From: an uncultured Corynebacterium sp.
GTDB lineage: Bacteria; Actinomycetota; Actinomycetes; Mycobacteriales; Mycobacteriaceae
Length of the DNA stretch: 64,000 bases
Direction: 5' to 3'
NCBI RefSeq assembly: GCF_943913165.1
Contig: NZ_CALTWD010000002.1
Location: forward strand, 1 to 64,000
Below, in pieces: positions 59,400 through 64,000 of the stretch. Made by a program: the position numbers and the translations under genes. The notes under the pieces are model-generated. The model was not told the origin of the DNA. It searched no databases and was given only the letters and a program-made list of their open reading frames with translations. Positions within the stretch are counted from its first letter, which is position 1, and each line of letters begins with the position of its first letter.

Positions 59400-59576
59400 A
59401 TGGAACCGGATAAAATGACCGAAACGGTGCAGCAAGCGAATGAGATTAGCTTCGAAGTTGAAGAGCTCGCCACAACTGGAGCAGTGGCAGCGAATTGTTC
59501 CGGAACTGTAGGAACTGGATCATCAGCCGGGTGCCCCAGTACGGCGGCAACAATTGGGACAGCTGGCTCTTTCTAA
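59400..59576 (+). CDS. RiPP precursor peptide 1 (azole/azoline type)
   Basis: A 58-residue peptide with a strong ribosome site (AAAGGAG at 59388-59394). Residues 1-~31 form an acidic leader with the motif F-E-V-E-E-L at 18-23, likely bound by the modifying enzyme. The C-terminal half is the core: Cys33, Cys45 and many Ser, Thr and Gly residues, with few charged side chains. These are the residues that YcaO cyclodehydratases convert to thiazolines and oxazolines. The motifs S-A-G-C-P and G-T-A-G are shared with precursor 2. First gene of the cluster. The leader/core cut site is not known; near AA-N32 is a guess. Confidence 0.8.
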   Translation: MEPDKMTETVQQANEISFEVEELATTGAVAANCSGTVGTGSSAGCPSTAATIGTAGSF

Positions 59577-59614
59577 ACCGAACGATAGCCGATATTCAGA
59601 GGAAGTAAACACTG

Positions 59615-59887
59615 ATGGATGTAGAAAGCATAAAAAAATCAAACTATGGAAAAACGAAAGCAGAAACGGAGAGCGATATGTCCGGTGGTACTGAGCATAG
59701 TTCAATCGCGTCAACTAATTCGCCCGATTTACATCGGGAAACGACAATTGCTTTCGAAATTGAAGAACTCGCATTCTCGCATACGCCCCCGATGGTCGCG
59801 GGTACGTCAGGTTGTGCAAGCACTGTCGGCTCTGCCGGGTGCCCAACTTGCGTGGGTACTGCGGGTTGTTTAAGTAGTAAAGGGTAA
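59615..59887 (+). CDS. RiPP precursor peptide 2 (azole/azoline type)
   Basis: A 90-residue peptide from ATG 59615 (AGAGGAAG nine bases upstream); an internal ATG at 59678 would give 69 residues. The leader holds F-E-I-E-E-L at 47-52, matching precursor 1. The core contains Cys67, Cys76, Cys79 and Cys85 with alternating Gly, Ser, Thr and Ala, and the shared S-A-G-C-P and G-T-A-G motifs; G-T-A-G-S of precursor 1 corresponds to G-T-A-G-C here. It ends LSSKG. It is richer in Cys than precursor 1, so two related products of different thiazole content are expected. Confidence 0.8.
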   Translation: MDVESIKKSNYGKTKAETESDMSGGTEHSSIASTNSPDLHRETTIAFEIEELAFSHTPPMVAGTSGCASTVGSAGCPTCVGTAGCLSSKG

Positions 59888-59896
59888 GGACTTGCT

Positions 59897-61607: not shown

Positions 61608-61616
61608 ATTGGGACT

Positions 61617-62864
61617 ATGGATGAATATAAGTCCTCTCTAGACTTCGAAAATACCGAGTTTTATAAAATATTCTCGTATCATCTTCGCCACCCCCTATCT
61701 TTTTTGGATTTAAAGTCTACGTCGTTACCACTCGTCCGATTTGGCGACCAAGTAATCCTCGTAAATAACGCTAAAATGGTTAAGGAAGTTCTCCGTCGGC
61801 CGGACGTTTTCGTCATGCCTAAACCGCTAGTATCTTCGGAGGTGATCGAAAGCAAATTCTATAATAAATTTTGTTCGACTTTGCCTTTTATGTCTACGAA
61901 ACCACACCAAAGTCTACGGAAGAAAATTAACCCGGCGTTCTCCTTTCGCAATGTTGATGAGTTTCAAAACGTTGTAGCGGAGGCTTGTGAATCCATATTT
62001 TCACATAAACCTGGGTCTGCAACCGGCTCGAGGAAAGTACCGTTAATTGACCTCGCTAATGTTGACTTGCCGCTTCAAGTGACCGGTAGGTGGATTGGTT
62101 TAACGGGCTCAAATCTTACTTCGTTTATCGATAACGGCCGGTCCTTAATTAGAGGCCTAAACGCGATGCTCTTGAGCAAATGCCTTAGCCAGTACGATCC
62201 CTCCGTAGATTTTGTCGATCAGAACTTAGTATCCCAACTAGAGTCGATATCTTCTTGTCCGGCTTCGTCGGCTTTAGCGGACTTACCGGGTTTAACCGTC
62301 TCTCGACTCATTTTCTTACTTAGTATGTCGGGTGTTAATAGCGTGTACTCTGGGTTGTCTCTTGTCTACAAAATCTTTGCGGACCGTTTCGGTGACCTGA
62401 AAGATTTAGTTTCGATGGAGACTAGTCAGCTTCAACGATTTATCAGAAAGGTGCTATTTCTCTATCCCCCGATTTCTTTTATTTCTAGGTCTACTAACCG
62501 GGAGGTTGATGTTGGCGGTTTTCTATTGCCGACAAATTCAACGGTGGTTTGTAATCTCCAATCGGCCCACGTAGGCGTTTTTAGTGCCGCTATCCGAGTT
62601 CCGGCTAGTTCGCTAACGGGTAAGCATATTAACAGATTTTTGGAAGGAAGCGAGTCTTCCCCACCTTCATTATCTTTTGGTACTGGTCCCCATCGATGTC
62701 TCGGTGAACCTCTGGCGCTTGAGCAGGTGCAAAAGTTTATTAGATATGCCAATGAGTCTGGTCTTGGAGTGAATGTGCCGGATACCTGTATAGGCGACTC
62801 GACGCTTCCCGGCGTTTTTAGATCGATTAAGGGAATCTATCTTACTGGAAAGGAAAGTCGTTGA
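61617..62864 (+). CDS. Divergent cytochrome P450-like tailoring enzyme
   Basis: A 415-residue protein whose C-terminal heme loop is unmistakable: F-G-T-G-P-H-R-C-L-G-E with Cys361 as heme ligand. 'FLYPPISFISRSTNREVDVG' and 'GFLLPTNSTVVCN' match the K'-helix/beta region. Two otherwise near-universal motifs are altered: the ExxR of the K helix reads K278-V-L-F281, and the I-helix acid-alcohol pair reads N241-S242 instead of (D/E)-T. The stop overlaps the next gene's start (TTGA). It may oxidise the azole peptide or use heme chemistry other than hydroxylation. A heme-binding but catalytically odd P450 is the safest call. Confidence 0.8.
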   Translation: MDEYKSSLDFENTEFYKIFSYHLRHPLSFLDLKSTSLPLVRFGDQVILVNNAKMVKEVLRRPDVFVMPKPLVSSEVIESKFYNKFCSTLPFMSTKPHQSLRKKINPAFSFRNVDEFQNVVAEACESIFSHKPGSATGSRKVPLIDLANVDLPLQVTGRWIGLTGSNLTSFIDNGRSLIRGLNAMLLSKCLSQYDPSVDFVDQNLVSQLESISSCPASSALADLPGLTVSRLIFLLSMSGVNSVYSGLSLVYKIFADRFGDLKDLVSMETSQLQRFIRKVLFLYPPISFISRSTNREVDVGGFLLPTNSTVVCNLQSAHVGVFSAAIRVPASSLTGKHINRFLEGSESSPPSLSFGTGPHRCLGEPLALEQVQKFIRYANESGLGVNVPDTCIGDSTLPGVFRSIKGIYLTGKESR

Positions 62865-64000
62865 AAAAAATTTTATATAACCCGCGTTATGCTGTTAACA
62901 AATCTGCAGATGAAGGGTTTTACTTCAGCAATGACCTTGGTGAGGCGCGCAGGGCCGACGGAAATATTTTTCGGAAGTTTCATCAAGCTCTGTCGGGAGG
63001 TGGGATCACTTTAAGTCGTATTGCAAAGGAATCGACTGATATAAAACCTGACATCGTGTTAGAAGAAGCCCGTCGGGCAATGGATAAAGGGTTGATAATT
63101 GAAGAGAGTGAAGATGGGGTTGTCGGTTTTGACCGACTGTTTTATCACTCGGGTTCTCATTCGAATTTTGAGTCCCGCAAAAGGAGGCAACCCAGAAGTT
63201 TATCGAATAGGTTAAAGGTTCAAGATTGTTGCATAGGTGCTTTTTATACTGACGATCTGACCCGGGCCCTTACGGTAACTCGTCTTCCTTCAAATTTAGA
63301 TTCCCTAAATCTCGTATTCGTAGACAGCATATTTGACAATTCTTTGCTTCAGTTAGCTTTTCGGTACCGGAAGGCTGGGATACCCTGGATGTTCGTTAGT
63401 TTGCGCGGGTATCGGATTGCGGTTAGTCCTGTTTTCGATCCCGGTAGACCTGGTTGTTATCGGTGCGTATACGACAAATTAAAACACAATTTTAATACCC
63501 TTTTCTATATCGCCCGCAAGTGTGAGGTCCCGATTTGTCGCACGCTTCCTATTCGATGTTATCGAATTGAAAACATAATCTCTCAGATTGAGTTTCAATT
63601 AGCTCGGTACAATTCAACAGATCAACCGAACGAGCTCTCCCTTTATGATTGTGCGAAAAATGAATACGAATATCACCCGGTTATTTCTCTTCCTTATTGC
63701 GACTGTTGTGGTCAACCGGAAGACGTAGCTAATTTGAGAAAAGAGCCTCCTCACACATTGGAGCACGTTGATCTTGTATTACACGATGGCGGGCTGAGAA
63801 GTAGATCCGCTGATGATGTCCTTCCTGACTTAGAACCATATGTGAGTGACGTTACAGGGGTTGTTAGAAACTTGATGCCGGCCGTTCCTCGTGTTGATGG
63901 CCTCGAGGTATATTACGCCGGGGAAAATCTGGCCGTTCCGGCGTCGAATATTGCTGAGTTAAGACAAGGATTACGCTCCGCCTGCGCGGGTAAAGGCTAT
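62861..64000 (+). CDS. Fused ThiF-like/YcaO azoline cyclodehydratase, cut by window end
   Basis: Read from TTG 62861 (overlapping the P450 stop), 380 residues are visible before the window ends. Residues 1-~85 look like a winged-helix leader-binding (RRE) domain. The middle is a ThiF/E1-like domain without a nucleotide loop, with two Cys pairs, Cys199-x-x-Cys202 and Cys280-x-x-Cys283, expected to hold zinc. From ~305 the YcaO part begins: 'GGLRSRSADDVLPDLEPYVS' then 'DVTGVVRNL' and an ATP-site motif A-G-K-G at 376-379. Such fused C-D proteins use ATP to cyclise Cys, Ser and Thr of precursor peptides. The catalytic C-terminus lies beyond 64000. Confidence 0.85.
   Translation, partial: MKKILYNPRYAVNKSADEGFYFSNDLGEARRADGNIFRKFHQALSGGGITLSRIAKESTDIKPDIVLEEARRAMDKGLIIEESEDGVVGFDRLFYHSGSHSNFESRKRRQPRSLSNRLKVQDCCIGAFYTDDLTRALTVTRLPSNLDSLNLVFVDSIFDNSLLQLAFRYRKAGIPWMFVSLRGYRIAVSPVFDPGRPGCYRCVYDKLKHNFNTLFYIARKCEVPICRTLPIRCYRIENIISQIEFQLARYNSTDQPNELSLYDCAKNEYEYHPVISLPYCDCCGQPEDVANLRKEPPHTLEHVDLVLHDGGLRSRSADDVLPDLEPYVSDVTGVVRNLMPAVPRVDGLEVYYAGENLAVPASNIAELRQGLRSACAGKGY

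Follow-up and report, generated by a model that had tools for sequence, protein, structure and literature searches.

What kind of product is specified by a peptide gene cluster of which only the first part is visible? The question is raised by the end of a 64,000-nucleotide stretch of DNA from an uncultured Corynebacterium sp. (assembly GCF_943913165.1, contig NZ_CALTWD010000002.1, positions 1 to 64,000), here called the window. The original prediction, made from the sequence alone, placed there two precursor peptides (preA and preB), an ATP-binding cassette (ABC) transporter pair, a cytochrome P450 and a fused cyclodehydratase (protein D) on one strand, and all six open reading frames (ORFs) are indeed found in place on the + strand (table 1). 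As judged from sequence comparisons, the locus is probably the first part of a goadsporin-like cluster for linear azole peptides, rather than of a thiopeptide or a coryneazolisin cluster, and the mature form of each of the two peptides is likely to be a linear, antibiotic-like chain in which a heterocycle recurs every three residues.

The two precursors are similar to each other (43% identity, E 5e-8 in that single comparison), and in both cores Ser, Thr or Cys is found at nine consecutive third positions, a run reached by 4 of 20,000 same-letter shuffles for preA and by 8 of 20,000 for preB. Among 16 cores tested, with core limits set by us after the EEL-type motif, 13 gave period-3 runs of 7–9, which were attained in no more than 48 of 20,000 shuffles. 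Off-register Ser and Thr residues stand directly before a rung of the ladder at S41 and S47 of preA and at S48, T57 and S66 of preB. Furthermore, preA aligns with residues 8–18 of goadsporin as CSG..GT.SSAGC, with a score equalled by 44 of 10,000 shuffles (18 of 10,000 when gaps cost less), so that the initial statement that neither core resembles goadsporin stands for preB, which gave no match above shuffles, and is too strong for preA. Two residues of the goadsporin query, T12 and C18, are assumed. The other 17 of its 19 residues were taken from PMC5303826.

The window holds the predicted N-terminal leader-binding winged helix of D, its E1-like domain and the start of its YcaO domain. When the window part of D was padded to bring full-length proteins into range, a search led to P0002, a relative of 742 residues that shows 2 differences in 379 shared residues (99% identical) and represents a protein cluster with 10 member sequences. 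The YcaO domain of P0002 is complete (PF02624, 240.2 bits; TIGR03604, 215.9 bits with a cut-off of 219.25), and its leader-binding E1-like domain scores 60.2 bits with TIGR03882 (cut-off 36.9). With TIGR03882 also matched by D itself, the assignment to an azole-type ribosomally synthesized and post-translationally modified peptide (RiPP) with a fused cyclodehydratase is supported, and a truncated or stop-containing YcaO domain, which had been named as a possible counter-argument, is not what this near-identical protein contains, as far as the point can be tested. Four cysteines (199, 202, 280 and 283) and six YcaO residues (E392, E395, Q512, E516, E519 and R520), which we take to serve zinc and ATP binding, respectively, are the same in all 8 proteins aligned and are kept in P0002. 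By sequence, the closest solved relatives are LynD (E 1.3e-91), TruD (8.1e-83) and MusD (8.2e-83), and the same three proteins came first when a structure model of D of moderate quality (mean predicted local distance difference test score, pLDDT, 64.7) was submitted to Foldseek, LynD with the best E-value but a root-mean-square deviation of about 19, and MusD (7u58) with one of 5.2. In this model the strands and the three helices of residues 1–82 are arranged as in a winged helix (pLDDT 51–70), and this part may represent the leader-binding element. D is, on the evidence of its domains, a fused YcaO enzyme, and cyclization is the usual reading of its activity.

The wider context was obtained by searching P0002 in two sets of genomes, one from the class (matches in 91 of 394) and one from the order (matches in 104 of 397), which have a few genomes in common; the five best-scoring genomes were G864, G888, G264, G678 and G943. 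Loci were fetched with their flanks, 20 from the class and 7 from the order, and a scan of named contigs added 21, the best of which were L106 and L107, from metagenome-assembled genomes labelled Mycobacterium sp. and Amycolatopsis sp., respectively, L106 being the same DNA as G264. In five loci (L106, L107, L142, L144 and L145) the order is precursors, P450, C39-peptidase/ABC protein, fused D, SagB-type dehydrogenase and the two parts of a split LanB dehydratase (LanB-N and LanB-C), with domains identified by hidden Markov models for L106, L107 and L145 and by tblastn for L142 and L144. The set from precursors to LanB-C is carried by four of the five best-scoring genomes and by L107. The tandem precursors number 2, 2, 2, 3 and 5, in the order in which the loci are listed, and the five D proteins form one clade (support 96/92). 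In L106, L107 and L142, LanB-C is followed by a DrrAB-like ABC pair, which in L144 precedes the precursors; no such pair was found in the L145 stretch. G888 (L143) contains the P450, D, SagB and ABC pair, with no LanB match in the 19.5 kb searched and no precursors found. Elsewhere among the fetched loci that encode a fused D, a pattern made for this leader type detected no precursors, except for an unlike one in L082, where a 118-residue ORF (12734–13090) with, by eye, a long nitrile-hydratase-like leader and a Ser/Gly-rich tail adjoins the fused cyclodehydratase and SagB.

The combination of a P450, twin precursors and a fused cyclodehydratase had been called unusual, a view that did not survive these comparisons: it recurs in the five actinomycete clusters, P450s are also part of the thiopeptide clusters for nosiheptide, nocathiacin and persiathiacin (PMC11406533), and a P450-like gene is present in one dehydrazole cluster (PMC10676384). 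A P450 with several precursors is usual in this group; what sets the window locus apart is a ladder of nine rungs in both cores, together with an atypical P450. As for the two precursors, each matches a different member of the five-gene array of L145 better than it matches its twin, and therefore the preA and preB types may be old and jointly kept. The pairing of preA with L145 precursor 2, its best core match, is less secure than that of preB, the second and third matches being L144 precursor 2 and L145 precursor 1 (preB-like type). The same array also includes a full member of the NF033629 (RiPP_CPAC) family, namely L145 precursor 4 (16878–17033; 117.8 bits, cut-off 60), next to the other members that best match preA and preB.

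The P450-like protein keeps the heme loop (FGTGPHRCLG, with the heme-Cys motif), whereas KVLF is found at the ExxR site and GVNS at that of the I-helix acid/alcohol pair, positions at which 11 of 11 aligned P450s from the relatives' loci have ExxR and D/E-T, respectively. Its sibling P0001 (2 differences in 415 residues; a cluster of 13 member sequences) shares this state at the P450 motifs. The protein may carry out an atypical chemistry or none; a structure prediction gave a mean pLDDT of 35.8, too low for use. A partial precedent is offered by CYP157 P450s, which also combine a heme-Cys signature with loss of the K-helix motif and lack ExxR but keep the Glu (EVLW, EQSLW), differing from the window protein, which is without both Glu and Arg and also without the I-helix pair (PMC3599690).

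Within the genus, 242 genomes were searched along with 14 control genomes. TIGR03882 proved useless as a genus marker, as it matches most genomes and controls too (215 of 242, 78 above the cut-off, and 5 of 14, respectively). TIGR03604 matches 17 of the 242 genomes, 4 above the cut-off, and long stretches from 16 of these 17 match P0002 at 22–27% over at least 200 residues (one match of 33 residues reaches 45%). Because of these low values, none of the proteins encoded in these stretches is close to D of the window. NF033482 gave 1 match across the 242 genomes, below its cut-off, and a model built from 16 precursors gave 1 match of 16 residues (E 0.008) inside a frame of 677 residues, which was taken as chance. 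Thus, no close D protein was found elsewhere in the 242 genomes, nor was the same precursor family, which might have been missed given that in many of them no more than 27 candidates from the first look were scored. Five genus loci, L043–L047 (G189, G226, G139, G040 and G149), contain two YcaO matches about 8–10 kb apart, with SagB-like and LanB-like frames also recognized by eye in L044, and resemble the published coryneazolisin clusters.

A macrocyclic thiopeptide cluster, with cores closed by a [4+2] pyridine synthase encoded past the window end, is brought to mind by the name of NF033482 (RiPP_thiocil, thiocillin family RiPP), which preA passes with 28.2 bits (cut-off 25), and by the weak matches of preB to the same model, below the cut-off (19.4 bits; 20.3 for its short form), and to TIGR03892; the P450s of thiopeptide clusters mentioned above point the same way. 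Besides an elimination protein, a thiopeptide requires a [4+2] synthase. With the latter taken as a second PF14028-type protein, it is relevant that one PF14028 (LanB-C-type) protein is encoded at each of the five relatives' clusters, and that this protein is the only one of the genome in G635 (L106; a draft, the twin of which, G264, is 93% complete), G943 and G678. In G636 (L107) a second one lies in a 1096-residue frame on another contig, and three more are present on other contigs of G864. Of the 13 precursors scanned, a set without the three of L144, 10 pass NF033482, namely preA and nine from the relatives. Because these nine belong to clusters without a second PF14028 protein nearby, the name of the model does not decide the class, and the thiopeptide assignment was set aside as unlikely. 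Much less probable still is a coryneazolisin, one of a group of Corynebacterium thiazole/oxazole-modified peptides named in PMC4603692, even if the genus is likely the same, the cluster is of the azole type and the group likewise features a fused D protein and LanB-like dehydratases. The coryneazolisin core is made of ten Cys/Ser/Thr residues, an Ile and 5–7 more (PMC4603692), whereas Ser/Thr/Cys residues alternate with Gly/Ala in the window cores; no match with an E-value of 1 or below was obtained for the window precursors in L043–L047, the loci with two YcaO matches, to which P0002 is similar only at the 22–27% given above. This candidate was set aside, its core pattern being unlike, the precursors unmatched and D distant.

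Two further alternatives concern what the locus can do rather than its class. Loss of ExxR and of the I-helix pair in the P450, together with the very long branch of D, would fit a decaying cluster in which the precursors are intact, the P450 is dead, D drifts fast and nothing is made. Such a state is quite improbable by taking into account that all six ORFs are open in the window, that P0002 retains the residues on which all 8 aligned relatives agree, that 13 and 10 sequences belong to the protein clusters of the P450 and of D, respectively, and that both ladders are perfect across nine steps. That the product is a plain azole/azoline peptide, made by D with at most a dehydrogenase and without a LanB pair or dehydration, agrees with D being the only such enzyme visible in the window and with the lack of a LanB match in the searched part of G888, one of the five top-scoring genomes; it is rather unlikely, since a LanB pair follows SagB in all five clusters with this precursor family.

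Several observations weigh against the assignment to a cluster for linear azole peptides of the goadsporin kind. The visible sequence stops within D, and a dehydrogenase, a dehydratase and a protease are predicted to be encoded beyond base 64000. The gene order differs from that of the relatives, with the ABC pair between precursors and P450, and their C39/ABC protein is not in the window. D of the window sits on a very long branch (2.8–3.0 changes per column) and its placement is unsure: its grouping with the five relatives and L143 is not rejected (approximately unbiased test, p 0.38), and neither is that with a smaller group seen in an earlier tree (p 0.43). For the second D tree, 11 of 35 rows (P0003, L085, L089, L096, L098, L099, L109, L112, L117, L118 and L119) were dropped as long, odd or near-duplicate, and 6 were added. 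MusD, which has the title of an ATP-dependent peptidase in its PDB entry (7u58), resembles P0002 as closely as TruD does, so that D could cut instead of, or besides, cyclizing. The alpha-type cores of L106, L107 and L142 have runs of only 5 (reached by 915–949 of 20,000 shuffles), and goadsporin, which has a phase shift, one of 4 (5,003 of 20,000); therefore, not all relatives follow a strict ladder. The match of preB to goadsporin does not exceed that of shuffles (1,530 and 1,501 of 10,000 at two gap costs), and the off-register residues S34 of preA, which aligns with goadsporin S9, and S44 of preB follow a rung instead of preceding one. Finally, the loss of two motifs in the P450 could itself be a sign of decay.

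With the goadsporin-like linear assignment, a pathway can be proposed in which the two precursors, the ABC pair, the P450 and fused D would likely give rise to two linear goadsporin-like azole peptides. D would use its N-terminal winged helix to bind the FE(V/I)EELA leader and would cyclize the in-register residues as GodD does in goadsporin (Streptomyces sp. TP-A0584), where X1-(S/T/C)-X2 sites are used (PMC5303826). A SagB-type dehydrogenase expected downstream would oxidize the azolines to azoles, and a split LanB pair, also expected downstream, would dehydrate S41 and S47 of preA and S48, T57 and S66 of preB, sites placed by analogy with goadsporin, in which the dehydroalanines from S4 and S14 directly precede the rings at T5 and S15 (PMC5303826). 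A protease would remove the leader and the ABC pair would export the product or protect the producer. The two products would work in parallel or jointly, and their targets would probably be related Gram-positive bacteria. More tentatively, and with considerable doubt, the locus may encode a two-peptide antibiotic, in which two cores that have long been separate share one set of enzymes, carry ladders of nine heterocycles with dehydro residues placed by that register and act as a pair, and in which a P450 without ExxR and the I-helix pair provides a scaffold or a non-classical chemistry. Two-peptide products have been suggested for NHLP-Burk, an azole-peptide group with tandem precursors (PMC4603692).

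Goadsporin is among the closest known systems. It shares with the window the fused cyclodehydratase (GodD is called fused in PMC4603692), and with the window's relatives the FMN dehydrogenase and the split LanB pair; a further feature of goadsporin is an N-acetyltransferase (GodH). It is derived from one precursor with a 19-residue core bearing six azoles (PMC5303826), as opposed to two precursors in the window (two to five in the group) and nine in-register sites per window core. The goadsporin-like stretch is confined to preA, the preB core being unlike; the window has a P450, a term that occurs 0 times in the available text of PMC5303826, and the relatives have the C39/ABC protein. At the level of precursor families, preA belongs to NF033482 by its cut-off and L145 precursor 4 to NF033629, and preB passes neither; neither cluster nor product is described with the hits. 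Coryneazolisins of types 1 and 2 are similar in being azole RiPPs of Corynebacterium with LanB-like dehydratases and, in the available part of PMC4603692, no [4+2] enzyme; they differ in having two D proteins and cores made of Cys/Ser/Thr blocks (PMC4603692), one D being seen in the window. An argument for a linear rather than a thiopeptide structure has likewise been made for them (PMC4603692), in a 2015 survey the available part of which counts only two goadsporin clusters. The dehydrazoles, too, combine azoles and dehydro residues, and one of their clusters has multiple precursors; they rely on a LanM-type dehydratase and long leaders (PMC10676384), in contrast to the split LanB of the window's relatives. 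A gene row resembling their clusters (PMC10676384) is found in L113 (Minicystis rosea; 5128–13381), with a P450, a 1052-residue protein that is LanM-like by eye, a fused cyclodehydratase and SagB. LynD (4v1v), TruD (4bs9) and MusD (7u58) are, as D, fused E1-like and YcaO proteins, at 24–30% identity, their precursors and clusters being of other types. PMC10676384 names spongiicolazolicins as related, and 2 linear azole-containing peptides and 2 thiopeptides were counted in respiratory Corynebacterium (PMC12188740), among which the window cluster may be included. Among the papers listed by a literature search, none was seen to describe an azole-peptide cluster of LanB type with a P450 and multiple precursors.

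The features of the locus are collected in table 1. An aldehyde dehydrogenase gene ends ahead of the six genes, and sequences resembling ribosome-binding sites are seen by eye upstream of preA and preB; promoter-like and terminator-like sites are rarer than in shuffles. The genes had been described as overlapping or separated by a few bases, which is correct for the gaps of 9, 4 and 9 bases from preB to the P450 and for the overlap of 4 bases between P450 and D, but not for the 38 bases between the precursors. Both transporter components fall below the cut-offs of two further models (ATPase, TIGR01188, 124.4 bits, cut-off 312.45; permease, TIGR00025, 28.5 bits).

Table 1. Coordinates of the features of the azole-peptide locus at the end of the window.
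Feature	Position	Strand	Remarks
preA, precursor peptide, 58 aa	59400..59576	+	leader end FEVEELA
preB, second precursor, 90 aa (69 aa if start = 59678)	59615..59887	+	leader end FEIEELA
preA ladder, C33 T36 T39 S42 C45 T48 T51 T54 S57	59496..59570	+	predicted heterocycles, period 3
preB ladder, T43 C46 T49 S52 C55 C58 T61 C64 S67 (numbering from 59678)	59804..59878	+	predicted heterocycles, period 3
ABC transporter ATPase, DrrA-like, 319 aa	59897..60856	+	PF00005/ABC_tran 87.3 bits; predicted export or immunity
ABC-2 permease, DrrB-like, 248 aa	60861..61607	+	PF01061/ABC2_membrane 53.4 bits
P450-like protein, 415 aa	61617..62864	+	PF00067 43.1 bits
Fused cyclodehydratase D, cut by window end	62861..64000	+	TIGR03882 62.1 bits, cut-off 36.9

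The nearest genome compared, G001, matches the window at 93–97% until base 59074–59082 and has other genes thereafter, presumably an ethanolamine ammonia-lyase operon as judged by eye. It gave no match to D and none to TIGR03604. Because the match to G001 stops there and D is unmatched in that genome, the cluster occupies a variable region behind the aldehyde dehydrogenase gene. The G+C content is 0.42–0.48 from about 59.0 kb onward, compared with 0.58–0.65 at 50–54.5 kb; it is also low at 55–58 kb (0.49–0.52), and the drop is therefore wider than the cluster. No match was found between the window DNA and plasmids, and D gave 13 matches at 20–27% identity in 72,556 plasmid records searched with tblastn. 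An exact 19-base pattern from the window end was not found in viral contigs, and a first scan of named genome contigs with window D gave no match. Further upstream, about 380 bases between a transporter gene and the aldehyde dehydrogenase gene (56804–57181) are unmatched in G001, which has about 35 bases there instead. A major-facilitator transporter gene (by eye; 55962–57140), directly behind a tRNA-Leu gene, consists of two same-frame ORFs split by a stop codon. The row at 44844–55343, by eye PknB/PknA, PbpA, RodA, phosphatase and FHA-protein genes, is typical of actinomycete chromosomes. The PknB–FhaA gene order in this row (by eye), together with the coryneazolisin-like loci of the genus set, makes Corynebacterium the likely genus.

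The locus of the window and its five relatives suggest the existence of a wider group of clusters in which several precursors are accompanied by a P450 and the likely sites of modification can be read from the sequence by a simple rule of spacing. Membership of L145 precursor 4 in NF033629 provides the RiPP_CPAC family with a cluster context. The P450 of the window, being without ExxR, offers a clean test of whether the fold may be kept for something beyond classical oxidation, and, since the sequences distinguish the two core types, the idea of a two-peptide product is testable.

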